Part shown: in pieces, positions 17,819-28,440 of the stretch
Layout: every line of letters starts with the position of its first letter
Numbering within the stretch: position 1 is the stretch's first letter
Source: Enterococcus crotali
GTDB lineage: Bacteria; Bacillota; Bacilli; Lactobacillales; Enterococcaceae
Length of the DNA stretch: 64,000 nt
Assembly (NCBI RefSeq): GCF_000633635.1
Contig: NZ_AYPQ01000002.1
Location: 423,643-487,642, forward strand
Reading direction: 5' to 3'
Program-made: the position numbers and the translations under genes
The notes under the pieces: model-generated
What the model saw: only the letters and a program-made list of their open reading frames with translations
The model's database searches: none
Told to the model about the DNA's origin: nothing

Positions 17819-18538
17819 TCATAAATTTTTCATAGCTCTTACAGAAACGAGACAGGTTTCACCATTACTCATTTCAACTATTCGTTCTTTCTTTTGTATC
17901 TCTGAGATATGGTTTTTATTAATCAAAAATGATTTATGACAACGATAAAACTCTTCGTATTGATCTTCGATATCTTTTAAGGCACCGTAAAATTCTTCTT
18001 CCCCATTCTCTAGATGCATGATCACTTTATGTGAAGAGATAGAAGATTCAAAAAAGATAACATCGTTTACATCGATCGATCGTACAGAATCCCCTGTTTT
18101 AAATTTGAAAAAATTCTTTTTACCACTACGATCATTTTGACTACGCTCATGAGCGATTCGAATACATTCGCAGACTCTCGCTTGAATCGTCTCTTGTGAA
18201 TCTTTAATAATGTAATCCATTGCCTCTACTTTGTATGTAAATGTTAAATAAGAAAGCTCTCCGTGCGTCGTTACAAAGACGATTTTCCCCAAATCATCAT
18301 ACTTGCGGATTTCAGCGGCTAAAGTCAAACCTGACATTTCATGCTGTAAATCTACATCAAAAAAATAAAGCCCCATAAATTTAGGTTTACTTTTAACATA
18401 TTCTAAAACTTCTGTTGGATTCCCCGTGGAAAATACTAATTCCATATCTAAATTTTCCATCATAATATAATTTTTCACATATTGCTCCAACAACTGGCGC
18501 TGTTTCCAATCATCTTCACATATAATAATCGACAGCAT
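17819..18538 (-). CDS. agrA: AgrA-type LytTR response regulator
   Basis: The transcription factor of the agr quorum-sensing system. The 239-residue protein has an N-terminal receiver with the acidic pair ICEDD and the phospho-acceptor aspartate in YFFDVDLQHEMSG near residue 61. A LytTR DNA-binding domain begins around residue 140 (KTGDSVRSIDVNDVIFFESS), with the typical FYRCHKSFLINKNHI stretch. It is the last gene of agrBDCA, 15 bases after agrC. By family knowledge it would bind paired sites near agr and near target promoters; I could not identify convincing sites by eye. Confidence 0.92.
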   Translation of the reverse strand: MLSIIICEDDWKQRQLLEQYVKNYIMMENLDMELVFSTGNPTEVLEYVKSKPKFMGLYFFDVDLQHEMSGLTLAAEIRKYDDLGKIVFVTTHGELSYLTFTYKVEAMDYIIKDSQETIQARVCECIRIAHERSQNDRSGKKNFFKFKTGDSVRSIDVNDVIFFESSISSHKVIMHLENGEEEFYGALKDIEDQYEEFYRCHKSFLINKNHISEIQKKERIVEMSNGETCLVSVRAMKNL

Positions 18539-19993: not shown

Positions 19994-20113
19994 TTATTTT
20001 AATTGTTCCTTTAATTCTGCTGGAATTAGAACTTCATCAGCAAAAAAACCACAACACATAACTAAATTTTGACTTCCCCAACCAGCAAATAATCTAAACA
20101 ATAACTTTTTCAT
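19994..20113 (-). CDS. agrD: AgrD autoinducing peptide precursor
   Basis: A 39-residue precursor of the cyclic quorum-sensing peptide, too short for routine gene calling. It has the three-part AgrD layout: an amphipathic N-terminus (MKKLLFRLFAGWG), a signal core, and a charged tail DEVLIPAELKEQLK that resembles the DEVEVPKEL tail of staphylococcal AgrD. By analogy AgrB would cut before DEV, giving a peptide ending in CGFFA with a thiolactone between Cys21 and the C-terminal Ala25. An adjacent Cys20 is unusual. It starts 13 bases after agrB. Confidence 0.9.
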   Translation of the reverse strand: MKKLLFRLFAGWGSQNLVMCCGFFADEVLIPAELKEQLK

Positions 20114-20126
20114 TTTCTATTCTCCC

Positions 20127-20723
20127 CTAATCCTTTTTTATTTTTAATGGTAAAACACTCATACCAGATAAAACATTTCCAATAACCATAAGATTTTGTA
20201 TTAGTAATTCTGGAACACATATCATAATAACCGTCATAATCAGACACGAACTCAAGGCTTGCATTCTTCTTCGTTTCTTCTTTTCATCACTGCCAATCGG
20301 ATTTTTACTTGTTGCTTTTGGTGCATATTTGCTTAATATCAATCCATTAATGACTTGTAAGAAGATCAATCCTTCCATCGGAATTAAGATTCCACCAGTA
20401 AGAACTCCGGCAGATCCAACAAATAATAAGATACTCGTAACGATACAACCAAAACTACTACCAGCATGATCTCCATATGCAAATACTCTAATAGTCAGAA
20501 AACTCAGGTGTAGAATAAATGTTTCAAATCCAATATTTAGAAGAAATGCTGTACTGTAGATAAACAGTAATTTAGATACATTGATGACTATTGATTCAAT
20601 TCCGAGTTTACATTTTAAGTAATCGATACGATTCAACTCTTCATGTCCATCTATAATAAAGCTCAAAATCAGGTTGCTTATATAGCTTTCCACATTCCAT
20701 AAATTCCAAATATTTTTCTCCAC
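20127..20723 (-). CDS. agrB: AgrB peptide-processing membrane protease
   Basis: AgrB is the membrane cysteine protease that cuts and cyclises AgrD. The 198-residue protein has the expected hydrophobic segments, and the catalytic pair is visible as HAGSSFGC: histidine and cysteine seven residues apart near positions 86 and 93. The later stretch LSKYAPKATSKNPI is also typical. Translation starts at GTG (20723) behind GGAGGG. It is the first gene of agrBDCA and is separated from the peptide genes by a terminator. Confidence 0.92.
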   Translation of the reverse strand: MEKNIWNLWNVESYISNLILSFIIDGHEELNRIDYLKCKLGIESIVINVSKLLFIYSTAFLLNIGFETFILHLSFLTIRVFAYGDHAGSSFGCIVTSILLFVGSAGVLTGGILIPMEGLIFLQVINGLILSKYAPKATSKNPIGSDEKKKRRRMQALSSCLIMTVIMICVPELLIQNLMVIGNVLSGMSVLPLKIKKD

Positions 20724-20878
20724 GTTTATTCCCTCCGTTTCCTTGAATTAACTTTACCAAATAAATAGCTAGTAATGATAGTTATTGCTTGAATCATCAA
20801 ATTCGTTGCTTTAACTGATAAAAAGAGTGTCTTTTATCGCGTAAACGTTCATTTTCTATTCCTAAGTGTAAAAATACA

Positions 20879-20919
20879 AAAAAGCGAAGAGAACTTTACT
20901 GCTGATCTCCGCTTTTTTG
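20879..20919 (-). terminator. Terminator after the peptide gene array
   Basis: AAAAAAGCG-AGAGA pairs with TCTC-CGCTTTTTT, with a T tail on the minus strand. It lies between the last short peptide gene and agrB, so the peptides and agrBDCA are separate transcription units. Confidence 0.8.
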
Positions 20920-20950
20920 TTCTTATGTGATTAAATTTTCTACTCGCTTT

Positions 20951-21046
20951 TTAATACCAACAGAATAATTTTAAGCCCCACGCATCTACTACGCAAAATT
21001 TCCCGCCTTTTACTTTATCTTCTTGTTTCGCTGTTAGTTTTTTCAT
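20951..21046 (-). CDS. Double-glycine peptide, copy 1
   Basis: A 31-codon gene with ribosome binding site AGGAAGAG. The leader is MKKLTAKQEDKVKGG; a C39 peptidase would cut after GG, releasing KFCVVDAWGLKLFCWY (16 residues, two Cys with ten residues between). The core is identical to that of copy 2; only one leader residue differs (Asp instead of Gly). Seven of the eight neighbouring peptide genes share the C-x10-C pattern, which rules out chance. The function is unknown; bacteriocin and signal roles are both possible. Confidence 0.85.
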   Translation of the reverse strand: MKKLTAKQEDKVKGGKFCVVDAWGLKLFCWY

Positions 21047-21123
21047 CTATTCTCTTCCTTTTCTTTTTATTTTTTGTTGTATTTGATTGCCAGTTTGATT
21101 TTAATTACTGTTTATTCTATTGC

Positions 21124-21219
21124 TTAGTACCAGCAGAATAATTTTAAGCCCCATGCATCTACTACGCAAAATTTCCCGCCTTTTACTTTTCCTTCTTGTT
21201 TTGCTGTTAGTTTTTTCAT
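21124..21219 (-). CDS. Double-glycine peptide, copy 2
   Basis: 31 codons, start behind AGAGGAATATC. The leader is MKKLTAKQEGKVKGG and the predicted mature core is KFCVVDAWGLKLFCWY, identical to copy 1 and offset from it by 173 bases. The DNA of the two copies differs at synonymous sites (for example in GAT-GCA-TGG), suggesting that the duplication is not brand new and that the core is under selection. Confidence 0.85.
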   Translation of the reverse strand: MKKLTAKQEGKVKGGKFCVVDAWGLKLFCWY

Positions 21220-21289
21220 GATATTCCTCTTTTCTTTTTTAGATTGATCGTTTTTTGATTCTACAACACTTTATGATTCAGCGTTTTAT

Positions 21290-21382
21290 TTAAAAGCAAA
21301 TTTTGATTCCTAATATATTATTGACGAAACACCATTTGCCGCCTCTTACTGTTTCTTCTTGTCTCTTAGTTAATTTTTTCAT
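21290..21382 (-). CDS. Double-glycine peptide, copy 3
   Basis: 30 codons with site AGAGGAATAATAC before the ATG. The leader is MKKLTKRQEETVRGG and the core KWCFVNNILGIKICF (15 residues, C-x10-C). It differs from copy 4 only in the leader. It lies inside a duplicated block of about 118 bases that also includes intergenic DNA, so this duplication is recent. Confidence 0.85.
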   Translation of the reverse strand: MKKLTKRQEETVRGGKWCFVNNILGIKICF

Positions 21383-21455
21383 GTATTATTCCTCTTTTCT
21401 ATTTTTTGATTGATCGTTTTTTGATTCTACAACACTTTATGATTCAGCGTTTTAT

Positions 21456-21548
21456 TTAAAAGCAAATTTTGATTCCTAATATATTATTGACGAAACACCA
21501 CTTGCCGCCTTTTACTGTTTCTTCTTGTCTTGTTGTTAGTTTTTTCAT
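21456..21548 (-). CDS. Double-glycine peptide, copy 4
   Basis: 30 codons with a strong GGAGGG site. The leader is MKKLTTRQEETVKGG and the core KWCFVNNILGIKICF, the same mature peptide as copy 3 at an offset of 166 bases. Together the pair doubles the dose of one product. Confidence 0.85.
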   Translation of the reverse strand: MKKLTTRQEETVKGGKWCFVNNILGIKICF

Positions 21549-21605
21549 GTGTTACCCTCCATATATTGATTTTCTATTATTTTATGTTTTCTTCGTCAGG
21601 TTAGT

Positions 21606-21707
21606 TTAGGCGTACCAACAGAATAGTTTGACTCCCCAAATATTGAACGCACACACTCTCACACCTGCTTGGATTTCATTTGTTTCCTTTTGTTCTAATT
21701 TATTCAT
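21606..21707 (-). CDS. Double-glycine-type peptide 5
   Basis: 33 codons behind AGAGGAGA. The leader MNKLEQKETNEIQAG ends in AG instead of GG, a variant C39 peptidases accept. The predicted core VRVCAFNIWGVKLFCWYA keeps C-x10-C and the W-G-x-K-L-F-C-W-Y ending of peptides 1 and 2 although the leader is quite different. Confidence 0.85.
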   Translation of the reverse strand: MNKLEQKETNEIQAGVRVCAFNIWGVKLFCWYA

Positions 21708-21756
21708 AATTATTCTCCTCTTCTTTGATTGTCTATTTGTTTTTTCAGTCATTTAA

Positions 21757-21858
21757 TTAAATGTTAAAACACAATATCTTATAACCAAAAGCATCCAACA
21801 CACAAAACATTTTTCCTGCTTTGATCTCTTCGCCCTTTTTCATCGTTAACTTAAACAT
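21757..21858 (-). CDS. Double-glycine-type peptide 6
   Basis: 33 codons behind AAAGGAGC. The leader is MFKLTMKKGEEIKAG and the predicted core KMFCVLDAFGYKILCFNI, with C-x10-C and the shared D-A-aromatic-G-x-K pattern. It is a close paralogue of peptide 7. The start could also be the internal ATG at codon 6, but the leader alignment and ribosome binding site favour the first. Confidence 0.83.
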   Translation of the reverse strand: MFKLTMKKGEEIKAGKMFCVLDAFGYKILCFNI

Positions 21859-21926
21859 TTTATCGCTCCTTTCATTCCTATTTATTAAAAGAGATGTCTT
21901 CTCTATTTGTTTTTCGACTTACTATT

Positions 21927-22031
21927 TTATTTAAAAGTAAAACATAATACTTTATAGCCAAAAGCATCTACTACACAAAATGTTTTCCCGGCTTTGATCT
22001 CGCTGCCCTTTTTCATCGTTAACTTAAACAT
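21927..22031 (-). CDS. Double-glycine-type peptide 7
   Basis: 34 codons behind AAAGGAGAC. The leader is MFKLTMKKGSEIKAG and the core KTFCVVDAFGYKVLCFTFK (19 residues, C-x10-C). The leader is almost identical to that of peptide 6, while the core has diverged at several positions outside the cysteines, glycine and lysine. Confidence 0.84.
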   Translation of the reverse strand: MFKLTMKKGSEIKAGKTFCVVDAFGYKVLCFTFK

Positions 22032-22076
22032 TCGTTGTCTCCTTTGTTTTTTATAGTTACTTCTTGTTGATCGATA

Positions 22077-22184
22077 TTATTTCCAAGAGCCGCAAAGAAC
22101 TTGATATAGCCACCAAGAACTCGCTGGAGCTAGAATTTTTCCAGCTTGAATTTCCTTACTTTGTTTCAAGTCTAATTTCTTCAT
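22077..22184 (-). CDS. Double-glycine-type peptide 8, divergent core
   Basis: 35 codons behind GAAGGGA. The leader MKKLDLKQSKEIQAG clearly belongs to the same set, but the predicted core KILAPASSWWLYQVLCGSWK has only one cysteine and lacks the shared pattern. It is the member closest to the oxidoreductase and exporter genes. It might be a partner peptide, or a signal rather than an effector. Its function is unknown. Confidence 0.75.
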   Translation of the reverse strand: MKKLDLKQSKEIQAGKILAPASSWWLYQVLCGSWK

Positions 22185-22244
22185 CTTATTTTTTCCCTTC
22201 TACATGTCATTTTCAAGTTCTAGCTTATTGTTCTTTTATATGCG

Positions 22245-22756
22245 TTATTTTGATTTTTCTACATTATCTGTAATCCATTTATTTACTTGTTCAACAGATA
22301 TGCCTTTTTCTGGCGTCCACTCTACTTTACTGTCTAGCTTTCCGTTGACAAACTTGGCAATTGTAGGTGTATAAATCAAATCATACGTCTTTTTAAAACT
22401 TTCCCATTTTGTCTCATTGGTTCGAAGTTCTGCGACATTGAGATACAGCAGCTGGTCCTCTAATTTGTGCATTTTTACCAATTTGATCAGATCTGGTTCA
22501 AAATCATTACAATCCCCACAGGTTGGCGCCCAACGTAAACATAGAATGATTCCTGATTTGCTACTTTATTTTCAAATGTATTTAATGTGATCGCATCAAG
22601 ATGATTGTAAATTTGCGGATATGAGCGTTTAGATTCAACCAATTCAGTTTCTTTTTCTTCAACCTGTGCACTTAATGAATAAGCATGGTTAGCAGTGAAT
22701 AAATTTGCTCCAAAAATTGCGGTCAAGAGTGCTGCATAGATTACTTTTTTCTTCAT
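22245..22756 (-). CDS. Secreted thioredoxin-like bacteriocin accessory protein (one frameshift)
   Basis: The N-terminus (MKKKVIYAALLTAIFGANLF, then TANHAYS) is a signal peptide. The frame breaks near 22525, in the middle of the active site. Restoring one base gives YVGRPTCGDCNDFEPDL, a CxxC thioredoxin motif, and joins the downstream part (QLLYLNVAELRTNE, YTPTIAKFVNGKL) into a 170-residue protein. The overall design matches PedC/BrcD-type bacteriocin accessory proteins that form disulfides in exported peptides. The cis-proline TPT is present. Confidence 0.8.
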
Positions 22757-22770
22757 TTTTTAGTTCCTTT

Positions 22771-23175
22771 CTAGAATTTTGCTTTTCCTAATAGGATATC
22801 TTCTGTTTCCTTTAGTTCTCGACTGCCTTCAAGGCGTTTCATATTACCATTTTCAACAATCAGAATCGTTGGTGTCACTGTAATATTATGCTCTTTAAGA
22901 AAACCACTATTTTTTGCGTTATCTGTATCCATGTAATAGACTGTTTTATTGGTATTCTCAATAGCTTCTTCCATCACTGGTTTGTATTCTTGACATGATG
23001 AACAGCCTCTGTTTCCCACCACAACAAAAACATCTTTTTTAGCGGTTTTAAATTGCTCTAATTCTTCCATATCTATCTTATTTTTCGTGTAATCTTTCGT
23101 CTGATTATTCATCATAAACAAGACACCTGCTACTATGATGATCATCCCTAAACCTATTTTAATTAGATTCTTGAT
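22771..23175 (-). CDS. Membrane-anchored thioredoxin-like protein
   Basis: A single N-terminal membrane segment (IGLGMIIIVAGVLFMM) is followed by a thioredoxin fold with active site GNRGCSSCQEYKPVM and cis-proline VTPTILIVENG, again like PedC/BrcD accessory proteins. It overlaps the end of the exporter gene. The ribosome binding site GGAGG is 8 bases before an ATC codon at 23175, which gives MKNLIKIGLG if used; the only ATG nearby is ten codons further and an upstream start would lie deep in the exporter gene. The start is therefore uncertain. Confidence 0.82.
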   Translation of the reverse strand: MKNLIKIGLGMIIIVAGVLFMMNNQTKDYTKNKIDMEELEQFKTAKKDVFVVVGNRGCSSCQEYKPVMEEAIENTNKTVYYMDTDNAKNSGFLKEHNITVTPTILIVENGNMKRLEGSRELKETEDILLGKAKF

Positions 23176-25291
23176 TGTTTTCTCCTCCTTTTTTCTGTAT
23201 CTCAAGGATCTTATCCGAACAAGCCAAAACGTCTGGCTCATGGCTAACTAAGAGAACAATTTTATTTTTGTCCTTTGCTAACGCCCTAATTTTGTTCATT
23301 AATGCTGATTTTGAATCACTATCCAGATTTCCCGTTGGTTCATCAAAAATGTAAATACTTTTTTCTTGATATAAGGCCCTCATCAAAAGGATTTTTTGTT
23401 TTTGTCCTTGTGAAAGATTGGCTGCATCCATTTGAACAAGGTGATTATTAGATAGTTTTAAGTTAAAAATATCTTCATATTGATTTTTTTCTTTTTCATG
23501 TAATTGCTCATTAAAAACTTTATATCGAATGTTACGACCAACTGTATTACTGTACAGATTAAACTCTGGAGAATACATTCCTATGTACTCATTAATATCT
23601 GTTTCTTTTAGTGATCGTTTTTTCGTGCTCTCATTGATGATAAATTCTCCTTCATCTGGTTGTAAGACTCCTGAAAGCAATTTGATCAAAGTTGACTTAC
23701 CCGAACCATTCTCTCCTTTGATTCCATAAATTGTTCCTGCCTGCATTTCGAAACTGAAGTTCTCAAAAATTTGCTTGCTCTTATCGTAACTAAAATCCAG
23801 ATGATCAATTGCAATTTTTTCGATTTTTTCCACACCTAATGGCTCTTTGCTTTTGATTTCTATATTACTTTGATAGTCATTCGAACTTTGGATAAAATCG
23901 ATTGCTACAGTACTTTTCTGATACATCAACCAACTTTGAACAACAGGAGATAGACTATTTAAAATAATCGAGATGATGAAAATACCTGTTGTGGTATTGA
24001 TCATACTTTCTTGTTCTCCATACAAGGTCATTGTGCTTAAAATTAGAAATGCACTTAAACTCATTAGTGTAATCATCGATTGATAAACAGAAACTACGTT
24101 CAACTCCGTAGTGCTATTGCTTAATCTAGCACTTAGGAAGCTTTTCATCTTATCTTTAACAAAATCCCCTGATTGTTTTGTTTTAGAAAATACATTGATA
24201 TCTAGAGATGATTTAATATTATTTTCTATTGATGAAGAAAATACGGAAGATTTCCCTATAATGTCCATCTCATTACTCTTAATCGCCTGAATCTTGCGGT
24301 TTAAATAAATGACATAAACGGCACTCCAGAACAATAGAGCGAGTGCCAGCCAGCTTGAAATGCTCGCTAAGACAACGGTCAATACAATGACATAACTAAT
24401 ATTGATCTTGAAATAAAATTTTTGAAATAGGCCGGATACTGAATTGACTAAATTCCAGAAATAGCCTGTGACATTCTCCAAATTCTTTCCAGAATCAAGA
24501 TCACTGATCTTCTGATTGTAATAATTCATCAAGATCTTTTCTTGAATATCATTTTCGAGTTTTACTTTCTGCTTACCTTCTCTAAGGTTTACTAAAAAGA
24601 ATAGATAGATCAGCCAACCTACTATAAAAACTGGTTTTAAGATATCGATGATCTGTGACTCTGGTGTAATGCTTTGCATCAAAGATTGAATAAACATCGT
24701 TGTTGCAAAAGGCAAAATGTATTTCAGAAAGAGTAATAAAATCATATTGGCTTTTGTTTTAACTGGTAAGCTGGTCATTACTTCTTTATAAAGAATTTGT
24801 GCGACACCTGTTTCTTTTTCCTTTGATCTAAAATTGAAAGAGATTTTTTTCTTTTTCTTAGCAACTTGTGTCACTTCTTGAATGTCTTCAATACATAATG
24901 CATACCCGAGAAAGATAGCTCTCAAATCTTCTTTTTCGTAGACTCTAAGTTTAGGTTCAGCAGGATTAGATATTGTATAGTGATTGTCTTTGATTTCGTG
25001 GACAACAACGTAGTGTGCATATCCCTCATTTTCAACCACTAACACCATTGGCAGCTGTTCAACACTTGCTAACTCTTCAAAATCCCTAACTTCGTAAGAA
25101 CTGGATACTACACCATACTGTAGCAATATTTCATTTAACTCTCCCAGAGACAATCCCTGATCTTTTTTTAAATTGTAATGCTGATATAACTCACTAACAT
25201 TTTTAATTTTAATTTCAAGTTGAGCTAAAATCACTCTCAGTGAGGCAATGCCGCAATCCGTACTCGATTTTTGCATGTAGTGCGCATACAT
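23159..25291 (-). CDS. Peptidase-containing ABC exporter (C39, PCAT)
   Basis: This 710-residue exporter would cut double-glycine leaders and export the peptides. The N-terminal C39 peptidase shows the catalytic cysteine in QKSSTDCGIASLRV (residue 13) and histidine in HYVVVHEI. The usual aspartate of the DP motif appears as asparagine in ISNPAEPK. Membrane segments run from about residue 180 to 440, and the ATPase has Walker A GENGSGKST, signature LSQGQKQKILLMRA and Walker B YIFDEPTGNLD. It sits upstream of the peptide genes in the same direction, its obvious substrates. Confidence 0.9.
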   Translation of the reverse strand: MYAHYMQKSSTDCGIASLRVILAQLEIKIKNVSELYQHYNLKKDQGLSLGELNEILLQYGVVSSSYEVRDFEELASVEQLPMVLVVENEGYAHYVVVHEIKDNHYTISNPAEPKLRVYEKEDLRAIFLGYALCIEDIQEVTQVAKKKKKISFNFRSKEKETGVAQILYKEVMTSLPVKTKANMILLLFLKYILPFATTMFIQSLMQSITPESQIIDILKPVFIVGWLIYLFFLVNLREGKQKVKLENDIQEKILMNYYNQKISDLDSGKNLENVTGYFWNLVNSVSGLFQKFYFKINISYVIVLTVVLASISSWLALALLFWSAVYVIYLNRKIQAIKSNEMDIIGKSSVFSSSIENNIKSSLDINVFSKTKQSGDFVKDKMKSFLSARLSNSTTELNVVSVYQSMITLMSLSAFLILSTMTLYGEQESMINTTTGIFIISIILNSLSPVVQSWLMYQKSTVAIDFIQSSNDYQSNIEIKSKEPLGVEKIEKIAIDHLDFSYDKSKQIFENFSFEMQAGTIYGIKGENGSGKSTLIKLLSGVLQPDEGEFIINESTKKRSLKETDINEYIGMYSPEFNLYSNTVGRNIRYKVFNEQLHEKEKNQYEDIFNLKLSNNHLVQMDAANLSQGQKQKILLMRALYQEKSIYIFDEPTGNLDSDSKSALMNKIRALAKDKNKIVLLVSHEPDVLACSDKILEIQKKGGENNQESN

Positions 25292-25306
25292 AGTCCTTGC
25301 CCCTTC

Positions 25307-25870
25307 CTATTTTTCAACAGTGATGTCCCCCATTGTGTCGATTTTTATTTGATCTTTACTTAATTTTTTTGTTTCAGGGACAGCTTTGACTTCGCCTTGC
25401 TCATTTGTTTCTAATTGATAAATACCTTCAAAAGTTGATTGAATTTTTGCTTCAACATTACCAACTACACTGTCGATTTCTAAAAATTTATAAGATGCAT
25501 CTTTCCCTAAGTCAATTGTAAAGAGTAATGGTTCTTTGCCATTAGCCGTGGTCATCAACCTAAATTGATTGAGTTTTGCTAAAGGAATTTCTAATGAATT
25601 CTCTTTTTTCACAGTCCCTTTTAAAAATTCTTCGTTCTCTTCAGAGACTTTGCCTGACAAAGTGATCTTCGTCTTATCATTCGTTGTTTCATTAACTACT
25701 ACTTTGACCTCTTGCTCTGCTCCTTGTAATGCGATTTTCTCGATTTGAGCATCTGCTAATTCCCATGATAGATCTACTTGATTTGCTGGTTTCCCTGCAG
25801 CAAAACTTGTATAACTAAAGAACCCAATTGTTACTAATACCGCTACTAAAATCATCATTTTTTTCTTCAT
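25307..25870 (-). CDS. Secreted protein of unknown function
   Basis: A 187-residue protein with a clear signal peptide (MKKKMMILVAVLVTIGFF, cleavage after SFA or similar). The mature part is rich in Thr, Lys and Glu with alternating short hydrophobic stretches (VKVVVNETTNDKTKITLSG), suggesting beta structure like DUF4097-type adhesin repeats, but I cannot assign it. Its place between the Bcr-type transporter and the exporter suggests a role in immunity or sensing of the peptides. Confidence 0.75.
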   Translation of the reverse strand: MKKKMMILVAVLVTIGFFSYTSFAAGKPANQVDLSWELADAQIEKIALQGAEQEVKVVVNETTNDKTKITLSGKVSEENEEFLKGTVKKENSLEIPLAKLNQFRLMTTANGKEPLLFTIDLGKDASYKFLEIDSVVGNVEAKIQSTFEGIYQLETNEQGEVKAVPETKKLSKDQIKIDTMGDITVEK

Positions 25871-25885
25871 AATAAATCTCTCCTC

Positions 25886-26611
25886 TTATTTAAATTCCCT
25901 ATTTTTGAATAATCTAAAGCTGATCAATAATGCAAGTGCTGCGTAAATGGCACTGCTGATAAAAATTGTTTGGACTTGGCTACTTGAAAGTGCCGATAAA
26001 TCTGTGACCATGCGTAAATTTGAAAAGAATAGAGTATCTAAAATAAAATCAAATTTAGCAAAGTATGTAGAAATAATGTTTGAAAAAATAGTATCTCCGA
26101 CAAATGCCAGTGAAATAAATGCTGCTACTGAGATATACGAAGCTTTAAGCCCATTGAACAATAAAATTCCTAGACTGCTAGCCGCCAGATATAATGGAAG
26201 TTGCGCTAACAACGGTTTCAGCGCTGTGCTTAATGAAAATCCTCCTTTTAAAGCCCATGTTGTAATCATCAAACTCGTTGCATATACACCAATAAACAAA
26301 ATTGTTAATAAAAAGGTCAAAATTGTTTTGCTGGCAAAGAACGTACTGCGTTTCATACCTGAAATCAACGAATTGTTGACAACACGGTAACTAAACTCAT
26401 GTCCCCAAGAAATCATGAAAATGTTCGTTAAAAATACTGGTATCAGTAATGCGCCATTGGATAATCCTGATTGGATGATCAATTGAGGCGTGTTGTCTGA
26501 GGAAGCTAAGAACCCAAATGCTATCCCCACAACAACTAATCCTGCTACTGAATAAAATCCTAATGAGCTTTTAAAAATCCTATAAAAATCTGCTTTTAAT
26601 GTACTAATCAT
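25886..26611 (-). CDS. ABC-2 type permease, probable immunity transporter
   Basis: A 241-residue integral membrane protein with about six hydrophobic segments, starting MISTLKADFYRIFKSSLGFY. The start at 26611 follows GGGAGAG and overlaps the end of the ATPase gene. The family (BcrB/LanEG-like) removes antimicrobial peptides from the membrane. Context with a peptide exporter supports self-protection, which is an inference. Confidence 0.8.
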   Translation of the reverse strand: MISTLKADFYRIFKSSLGFYSVAGLVVVGIAFGFLASSDNTPQLIIQSGLSNGALLIPVFLTNIFMISWGHEFSYRVVNNSLISGMKRSTFFASKTILTFLLTILFIGVYATSLMITTWALKGGFSLSTALKPLLAQLPLYLAASSLGILLFNGLKASYISVAAFISLAFVGDTIFSNIISTYFAKFDFILDTLFFSNLRMVTDLSALSSSQVQTIFISSAIYAALALLISFRLFKNREFK

Positions 26612-27515
26612 GTTTAGCTCTCCCATCAATTAAGTTTAAATAATATTCTTCTAAATTCTCTTCTCTATAGTCAAAATGTGTAAGATAAATATTATTTTCA
26701 AACAACAGTTTTGCAATGGCTGGCATCATCTCTTTTTCTGCTTTGACCACTATAAAATCATCTTTTTGCTCTACTTGATAGTTGTTTTTGCTTAACAACT
26801 CAATCGTTAACGAATCAGTTGAACTCTTCAAAGAAATACTTCTGCCGCATTCTTCTGCTAGTTCTTCACTCGTTAGCTCTTTGATCAAACTTCCTTCGTT
26901 GATAATTCCATACCTACTGGCAACTAATGATAGTTCCGTAAGAATATGGCTGGAAATTAGGATCGTTGTTCCAAATTCTGTATTCAAACGATGAATGATC
27001 TCTCTGATTTCTACGATTCCTTGAGGATCTAAACCATTTACAGGTTCATCAAGAATCAAAAATTCTGGGTTATCTAGAATAGCCAAGCCGATTCCTAGGC
27101 GCTGTTTCATTCCTAAAGAATAGTCTTTAAAGACTTTCTTTTTGTCTACATTTGCCAAGCCTACAAATTCGAGTACTTCATCGATCCGCTTTTTATTTTT
27201 TATATTTCGTTGAATAGCATAATAGTTTAAATTGTCTCTTGCTGATAAATATGGATAACAGACGGGCCCTTCAATAACTGCCCCCATTTTCATTTTGTTT
27301 ACTGAATTGAATGTCAAGTTCCCAGAACTTTTTTCTATTAATTGTGTGATAAGACGAATAAAGGTTGTTTTTCCCGCACCATTTTTTCCTATAAAACCAT
27401 AAATGTCTCCTTTATTGATCGTCATGGAAACTTCATTGACCGCATGATATTCTTTGTAAGTTTTGAATAAGTTGTCTGTTTTAACTAAATAATTGCTTCT
27501 GTTTGGTACTTCCAT
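26604..27515 (-). CDS. ABC transporter ATPase, BcrA-like
   Basis: A 303-residue ATPase with Walker A GKNGAGKTTFIRL, signature YSLGMKQRLGIGLA, Walker B FLILDEPVNGLDP and the switch HILTEL. The C-terminal extension (after about residue 215) is typical of bacitracin/lantibiotic self-protection ATPases. It is the first gene of a run of co-directional genes down to the peptide array and is coupled by overlap to its permease. Confidence 0.88.
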   Translation of the reverse strand: MEVPNRSNYLVKTDNLFKTYKEYHAVNEVSMTINKGDIYGFIGKNGAGKTTFIRLITQLIEKSSGNLTFNSVNKMKMGAVIEGPVCYPYLSARDNLNYYAIQRNIKNKKRIDEVLEFVGLANVDKKKVFKDYSLGMKQRLGIGLAILDNPEFLILDEPVNGLDPQGIVEIREIIHRLNTEFGTTILISSHILTELSLVASRYGIINEGSLIKELTSEELAEECGRSISLKSSTDSLTIELLSKNNYQVEQKDDFIVVKAEKEMMPAIAKLLFENNIYLTHFDYREENLEEYYLNLIDGRAKHD

Positions 27516-27924: not shown

Positions 27925-28440
27925 TTATTTAGAAACATTCAGGTTCGTTTTCAGAATTTGTTCTAACTTCCAACTTCTATTTAATAAATATAATGAGTTT
28001 TTACTATCCTGGATTTCATAGTTGATAGCTTTCTGATTTAATAGTAATAAAATTTTTTCAGCTAAGTCATCTTCTTGTTCTTCTTCAATGTTTCTCAATA
28101 AAATAATGTAATGAGCATTTTTCTTCAATTGGTGGTTATTTCTTATTCTTATTATATGAAGACTGTCTTCTGTATTTTTTTGATATAGGCTATCCCGTTA
28201 ATAACTACTATCAGTCTCAGATCCATTTCACCTATATAACTGCTAGACATCTTCACTTCTTCTAGAAAATTGAATAACTCCAAAAAACAAGTTTCTCCTT
28301 GTTTGCTTCTTGAATCATATCAAGCGTTTTAAAAGGAACTGTAGGTAATTGATCATGCGGCCCTTTCAAAAAATCAAAGAATAATGCTTCGTCTTTATTT
28401 TTTTCTTGCTGACCTCTACTCTCTAATTTAGCTTTGACAT
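27925..28440 (-). CDS. Unrecognised gene, three frameshifts
   Basis: Four overlapping fragments on one strand join into a single 172-residue protein if one base is added at each of three A runs (minus strand), near 28427, 28299 and 28178. The reconstructed start is the ATG at 28440 behind AAAGGGTGG, reading MSKL then KLESRGQQEKNKDEALFF; later parts include FLKGPHDQLPTVPFKTLDMI, SSYIGEMDLRLIVVINGIAY and YIILLRNIEEEQEDDLAEKI. I recognise no family. The mix of charged and aliphatic stretches suggests a soluble cytoplasmic protein. It could be a decayed gene, but the indel pattern matches the suspected errors elsewhere. Confidence 0.6.

Follow-up and report, generated by a model that had tools for sequence, protein, structure and literature searches.

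The 64,000-nucleotide stretch of Enterococcus crotali DNA considered here (contig NZ_AYPQ01000002.1, positions 423,643 to 487,642 of the forward strand; hereafter the window, from a 3.9 Mb genome, G000) carries eight very short genes, P1-P8, for leader peptides of the double-glycine type. They lie between genes for an exporter and thioredoxin-like proteins and an agr quorum-sensing locus, in the order ABCa, ABCm, sec187, C39-ABC exporter, trxT, trxP, P1-P8, agrB, agrD, agrC, agrA. Every one of these genes is on the minus strand, in agreement with an earlier note made from the letters of the sequence. The agrB-D-C-A set described in that note is also present, although only agrB falls within the span that it assigned to the locus, agrD, agrC and agrA being found at 20113-17819. 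The nearest named relative that we found is Enterococcus sp. DIV0212c (locus L001), whose exporter protein is 100% identical to that of the window. The features, in window positions and with open reading frame abbreviated to ORF, are as follows.

26604..27515 (-) ABCa, ATP-binding subunit, LanF-like, putative self-protection; Pfam ABC_tran, best NCBIfam model TIGR03740, below its cut-off
25886..26629 (-) ABCm, membrane subunit paired with ABCa, a neighbour kept in relatives
25307..25870 (-) sec187, toastrack/DUF4097-like beta protein, secreted or anchored in the membrane
23159..25291 (-) C39-ABC exporter, an ABC transporter with a peptidase domain; Peptidase_C39 1e-20, ABC_tran 8e-27
22771..23175 (-) trxT, thioredoxin-like, CSSC; Thioredoxin 2.1e-9
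22245..22756 (-) trxP, gene for a second oxidoreductase, of the DUF6568/thioredoxin type; broken in the window, with open homologues in relatives
22077..22184 (-) P1 precursor, AG leader, single Cys; position kept in L001, L041 and L042, the L002 copy being divergent and Cys-free
21927..22031 (-) P2 precursor, AG leader, C-x10-C core
21757..21858 (-) P3 precursor, AG leader, C-x10-C core
21606..21707 (-) P4 precursor, AG leader, C-x10-C core
21456..21548 (-) P5 precursor, GG leader, C-x10-C core
21290..21382 (-) P6 precursor, GG leader, same core as P5; within a 166-bp tandem repeat
21124..21219 (-) P7 precursor, GG leader, C-x10-C core
20951..21046 (-) P8 precursor, GG leader, same core as P7
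20724..20950 (-) spacer from the array to agrB; holds a possible LytTR-type repeat, ACACTTAGG...AACGTTTAC, whose score in the window is not significant
20127..20723 (-) agrB; PF04647 4.1e-25
19994..20113 (-) agrD, predicted to encode the precursor of an autoinducing peptide; lies between agrB and agrC and is kept in L001, L041, L042 and L003
18554..19864 (-) agrC histidine kinase; HATPase_c_5 5.6e-14
17819..18538 (-) agrA LytTR response regulator; LytTR 1.2e-21, Response_reg 2.8e-14
27928..28438 (-) remnants, in three pieces, of an upstream ORF of 155-176 residues (tblastn with the L003 copy)

The peptide precursors and their spread in the genus

The window precursors have 30-35 codons each, and all eight carry a leader of the GG/AG type, which ends in AG in P1-P4 and in GG in P5-P8. 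The earlier note had given every gene its own ribosome binding site and had described C-x10-C cores; judged by eye, a Shine-Dalgarno-like stretch is clear before seven of the eight and weaker for P1, and the C-x10-C core likewise holds for P2-P8 (7/8) but not for P1, which has one Cys. The start of P4 is most likely 21707, behind its ribosome binding site, rather than the longer start given by the mechanical ORF. P5 and P6 have identical cores, as do P7 and P8, and a 166-bp tandem repeat (21171-21554) extends over P5 and P6 into P7, of which it includes the leader part. No core has more than two Cys, and the cores of P3-P8 (6/8) have neither Ser nor Thr. In a table of 18 cores, which is a selection of precursors that began from a scan admitting Cys spacings of 7-12, lengths run from 12 to 20 residues, GRAVY (hydropathy) from 0.22 to 1.97 and side-chain charge from -1 to +3; the Cys are ten residues apart in 15 of the 17 two-Cys cores and six apart in the other two, P1 with its single Cys being the eighteenth. 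Spacings that differ by four are as expected if the Cys stand opposite each other across a two-stranded hairpin, and an AlphaFold2 model of one precursor (a leader helix and two strands, pLDDT 53) may be taken as weak support for such a hairpin. There was no credible NCBIfam match for the 11 precursors scanned, six of the window's eight and five from relatives.

By sequence comparison the array is real and conserved, since homologous arrays in 12 of the 22 congeneric genomes together with low pN/pS exceed what chance would give. The ratio for position-matched copies, with P1 left out of the count, is 0.29 against L041 (five precursors) and 0.09 against L042 (seven); synonymous changes dominate, and the precursor ORFs are on this measure under purifying selection. 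A trxP homologue was detected at 1e-5 in 16 of the 22 genomes of the genus, and 19 regions were fetched and mapped after that search, two of them duplicates of loci already in the set. The small-ORF profile search proposed by the earlier note, run across the genus with a profile of 21 precursors, recovered homologous peptides beside C39 exporters, whose absence from related genomes the note had named as a refutation: matches were obtained in 14 of 22 genomes at E<=0.01 and in 12 at E<=1e-5, the weak matches in G001 and G008 being other peptides. Peptides of eight of the twelve array genomes went into the profile, the other four genomes being G004, G006, G013 and G011; because the sequences of G004, G006 and G013 are the same as or nearly identical to profile rows, G011 (E 1e-7) is the sole distant test. 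In 12/12 genomes ABCa, ABCm, sec187, the exporter, trxT and trxP adjoin the array, in varying order, so that the co-occurrence which the note proposed to test held for the exporter but not for agr, with agrB beside only four of the twelve arrays.

Array size ranges from two genes (G013) to ten (G004, G014), and C-x6-C arrays occur as near-identical copies in G003, G018 and G016. The agr-linked species have several core types and the others one or a few. The note's picture of a peptide cocktail thus fits the former, but in several of the latter the same one or two core types recur. Beyond the genus, G045 (genus g4) has two C-x10-C copies at the end of a contig. In the family labelled f3, G366 and G261 each have a single C-x10-C gene upstream of ABCa, as does G423, there without an ATG at that place. 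Ten trxP-related loci without this type of array were not counted (L045, L048, L051-L056, L062, L063). Three of them (L048:788-1096, L052:3534-3638, L053:817-921) hold precursors of the GG/AG type whose paired Cys are 8-9 residues apart, as well as C39 exporters and AgrC/AgrA homologues, and could represent a second peptide family. No description of these arrays was recognised in the literature, as judged from titles and abstract openings with incomplete coverage of journals, and within the limits of that search this family of very short, disulfide-type double-glycine peptides is apparently undescribed. With 27-58 codons its precursors lie under common gene-calling limits, and the family may therefore be overlooked.

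Export, oxidation and putative protection genes

The exporter proposed in the earlier note is borne out by its domains (Peptidase_C39 1e-20, ABC_tran 8e-27), and the locus has two features of a C39 export system, an ABC exporter with an N-terminal C39 peptidase and adjoining GG/AG-leader precursors. A plasmid search with it at 1e-40 returned one Weissella plasmid. A lone AG-leader peptide with a Cys pair is found upstream of a distant C39 exporter on the Weissella hellenica plasmid pMBEL1842 (L065:5807-5932).

Of the two CxxC proteins reported for the window, trxT is open and has its CSSC motif, but trxP is broken into two start-to-stop ORFs (22756-22487 and 22481-22245) and the CxxC is in neither, since it sits in the second open frame ahead of that frame's first start codon. 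In the other eleven array genomes trxP is open, with an ORF of about 163-209 residues (the G007 match spans one stop near its end), and the L002 copy matches PF20207 and PF00085. As trxP is open in the close relative L001, the break in the window could be a real mutation or a sequencing error. We consider it very improbable that the array is decaying or inactive in this strain and that only its agr part is in use: the broken trxP and the fragmented upstream ORF could be read in that way, but the exporter, trxT, the eight precursors, the ABC pair and sec187 are all open, the precursors are under purifying selection, and in L001 trxP is open and there are ten precursors. A trxP profile run at 1e-20 against 398 genomes drawn from the class found one, the window's own. 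A tblastn search of plasmids with trxP gave 104 records, 100 of them from Enterococcus and all below 60% identity; the two contexts inspected lie beside enterocin 96 on pTEF2 and in a glycosyltransferase-C39-thioredoxin cluster of strain ATCC 29212, and trxP relatives include the DUF6568 proteins at both places.

Pediocin-type class II bacteriocins with PedC/BrcD also combine a C39 exporter with a thioredoxin-like protein. The PedC/BrcD likeness suggested by the earlier note did not stand, the scores being 17-42 bits against the cut-off of 120 for NCBIfam TIGR01295. With the model so far below its cut-off, and with the YGNGV motif absent, by eye, from the eight precursors, a pediocin-like reading was rejected.

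The ABC pair that the same note had called Bcr-type is present, and its ATPase is closest to the lantibiotic protection model TIGR03740, at 219.5 bits below that model's cut-off of 309.75. The window ABCm has no Pfam or NCBIfam match, and sec187 had no match at E<=1 when the sequences of the PDB were searched. In Listeria, a toastrack/PspC protein has been tied to garvicin KS susceptibility (PMC12791056). A role in self-protection is suggested by a comparative pattern: the ABC module stands beside 12/12 arrays and also alone at other loci. ABCa-ABCm-sec187 is found with no intact exporter or peptides alongside at L115, L116, L119, L062 and L003, and the genome-wide peptide profile found none in G071, G288 and G394 and one weak match, to another peptide type, in G001. 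In the ABCa tree (23 rows, with the broken second sec187 locus of G288, L117, left out) the loci without exporter or peptides are interspersed among producers; the label 'no intact exporter' needs six changes, at least five of them forced by well-supported branches, and the sec187 of G001 is 96% identical to that of the producer G009. The proposal that BWB1-3 is a non-producer was dropped, as the genome that holds L003 has a second, complete C-x6-C array (L050). At L062 (8936-14472) the genes are trxP, ABCa, ABCm, sec187, agrC and agrA, without agrB, agrD, exporter or peptide, and this could possibly be a locus for listening and being protected.

An ABC module that stands without exporter and peptides fits self-protection, and hence bacteriocins, better than signals. 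It is also the finding that makes it improbable that the peptides act on other targets (biofilm, surface, or an animal or plant host) and that ABCa-ABCm-sec187 relieves envelope stress caused by their export. Secreted GG-motif proteins with a role in biofilms are on record (PMC4997328) and the cores are hydrophobic and weakly charged, yet a module kept at loci without an exporter argues against export stress as its reason. What calls for caution in reading the protection-only loci as we do is the precedent of blp: pneumococcal strains with broken blp exporters have been discussed as cheaters, and the paper that does so argues against that view (PMC4739728).

The agr locus and possible control of the array

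AgrB, AgrC and AgrA are recognised by Pfam, and AgrD, which has no Pfam or NCBIfam match, by position and conservation. The earlier note had peptide production under agr control, for which the comparison gives little. Only four of the twelve array genomes (G000, G002, G004 and G014) have agrB next to the array, so agr is an add-on; an AgrB match is found somewhere in 15 of the 22 genomes, including nine of the twelve with arrays. A fixed dependence on agr was therefore rejected, as eight of twelve arrays have no adjoining agrB and three of the twelve genomes no AgrB match at E<=1e-6. A consensus scan for LytTR/AgrA-type direct repeats gave scores ahead of ABCa that 83-298 of 300 shuffles reach in six genomes, and ahead of agrB scores reached by 110 (window), 102 (L001), 20 (L041) and 25 (L042) of 300. 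With the scan ahead of the peptide operon at chance, it is linkage that speaks for control of the peptides by agr. The stretch from the array to agrB has no terminator-like site, so that transcription could read through into agr; such sites numbered 6 against 2.7 in shuffles, and promoter-like sites were not commoner than in shuffles (29 against 33.8).

Three of the five agr loci with an agrD have tandem AgrC genes behind that single agrD, two at L001 (13778-16740) and L041 (12251-14946) and three at L003 (11321-15442), the window and L042 having one. Within a locus the copies share 30-60% identity in their first 150 residues and 84-100% in the remainder, a pattern that suggests swapped sensors on one kinase, which could then hear several autoinducers. 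Upstream of the operon, an ORF of 155-176 residues with no credible family match (copies at L003:6597-7127 and L041:3318-3848) was sought by tblastn with the L003 copy in 17 records: it is present at 6/6 agr-linked loci, in pieces in the window, and at 0/11 others, nine of which have a 68-residue ORF in its place (e.g., L115:8109-8315).

These features bear on the other role that the earlier note had left possible, that of multiple signals. The peptides would then form a multi-pheromone system, or else modulate the agr receptors, and the ABC pair and sec187 would handle or sense them. Pheromones too leave the cell by C39 exporters (PMC7018657), a quorum system adjoins the array in four genomes, some agr loci have several AgrC sensor variants, and the near-identical copies repeated in several species are what a dosage signal might show. 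Nevertheless, we saw no receptor set that tracks the peptide types, most arrays lack an adjoining agrB, ABCa is closest to lantibiotic-protection ATPases, and the ABC module is kept where no peptide was found, as expected for protection. Signalling is thus an unlikely role, though of the alternatives considered the least unlikely, and between the two roles the protection-only loci favour bacteriocins.

A putative bacteriocin system and its relatives

We hold it probable, if by no means assured, that this is a bacteriocin-type locus, in which tiny leader peptides would be exported and looped by a disulfide, with dedicated protection and, in one species group, timing by agr. Comparison of the genomes establishes that the array exists, that it goes together with the exporter, the oxidoreductase genes and the ABC module, that the precursors are under purifying selection and that the ABC module also occurs at loci lacking production genes. 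These patterns support well a group of short secreted peptides, probably with a disulfide bond, that has its own export and self-protection; the products are most likely bacteriocins, with a link to agr in a single species group. From each precursor the C39-ABC exporter would remove a leader of some 15 residues, with GG or AG as the last two, and export a hydrophobic, aromatic core (15-19 residues in 7/8 peptides). The thioredoxin-like proteins may help to close one disulfide across ten residues, and the looped, probably hairpin-like product could act on the envelope of related bacteria, killing them; the producer would be shielded by the LanF-like ABC pair together with the toastrack-like sec187. 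The downstream agr circuit probably times production by cell density in this species group.

The nearest systems in working principle appear to be pneumococcal blp and rtg. Like the window, blp (pneumocin) has several double-glycine peptides, its own C39 exporter and quorum control; it differs in using a double-glycine pheromone, BlpC, with BlpH/BlpR (PMC4739728), whereas in the window the circuit is agr, the cores are very short, and oxidoreductase genes and the ABC module are present. The rtg locus shares a C39 exporter and several GG peptides of unproven function that are speculated to be bacteriocins, but is under Rgg/SHP-type control (PMC7018657), and the comparison extends to the exporter, the presence of several GG peptides and the mode of control. 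With E. faecalis fsr and staphylococcal agr the window shares AgrB, AgrC and AgrA homologues and an AgrD-like precursor; here they adjoin a peptide-export operon, three related loci have 2-3 AgrC with divergent sensor halves, and one locus has only agrC-agrA (L062). Self-protection transporters of the LanFEG/BcrAB type resemble the ABC pair in an ATPase nearest TIGR03740 and a paired membrane subunit, but the window ATPase is below that cut-off, no lantibiotic synthetase was seen in the operon, and a toastrack-like secreted protein regularly accompanies the pair.

Enterococcal clusters of the glycocin type, namely enterocin F4-9 and the enterocin 96 region of pTEF2, which we take to be of this type, share the C39-ABC exporter, thioredoxin-like proteins including the DUF6568 type, and secreted disulfide peptides. 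The window differs in its many precursor genes and in its cores, which have 15-20 residues and no more than one Cys pair and in six of eight cases lack both Ser and Thr. It also has an ABC pair and sec187, in contrast to the small membrane immunity protein of enterocin F4-9, whose cluster is similar in content to that of ATCC 29212 (PMC8620827). A glycocin reading was rejected: no glycosyltransferase is in the operon (none among the ten locus proteins scanned with Pfam, the rest of the genome not having been searched for one), the cores have at most two Cys and mostly neither Ser nor Thr, and glycocins are defined by two disulfides and a glycosylated residue.

More tentatively, and we regard this as rather doubtful, the family could be a distinct class of single-disulfide hairpin bacteriocins with cores of 12-20 residues, encoded in tandem arrays and free of backbone or sugar modification. 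Its social layer would consist of multiplied, swapped-sensor agr receptors that follow several autoinducers, and some relatives would keep only protection and listening, with agrC-agrA but not agrB-agrD, and would produce none of the peptides. If active, the peptides would be, to our knowledge, among the smallest double-glycine bacteriocins, easy to synthesize with their one disulfide, and the natural variants in tandem within the arrays could be used for structure-activity work. Producers, protection-only loci and a locus that combines listening with protection would form a set for direct tests of cheating and eavesdropping in a quorum-linked peptide system.

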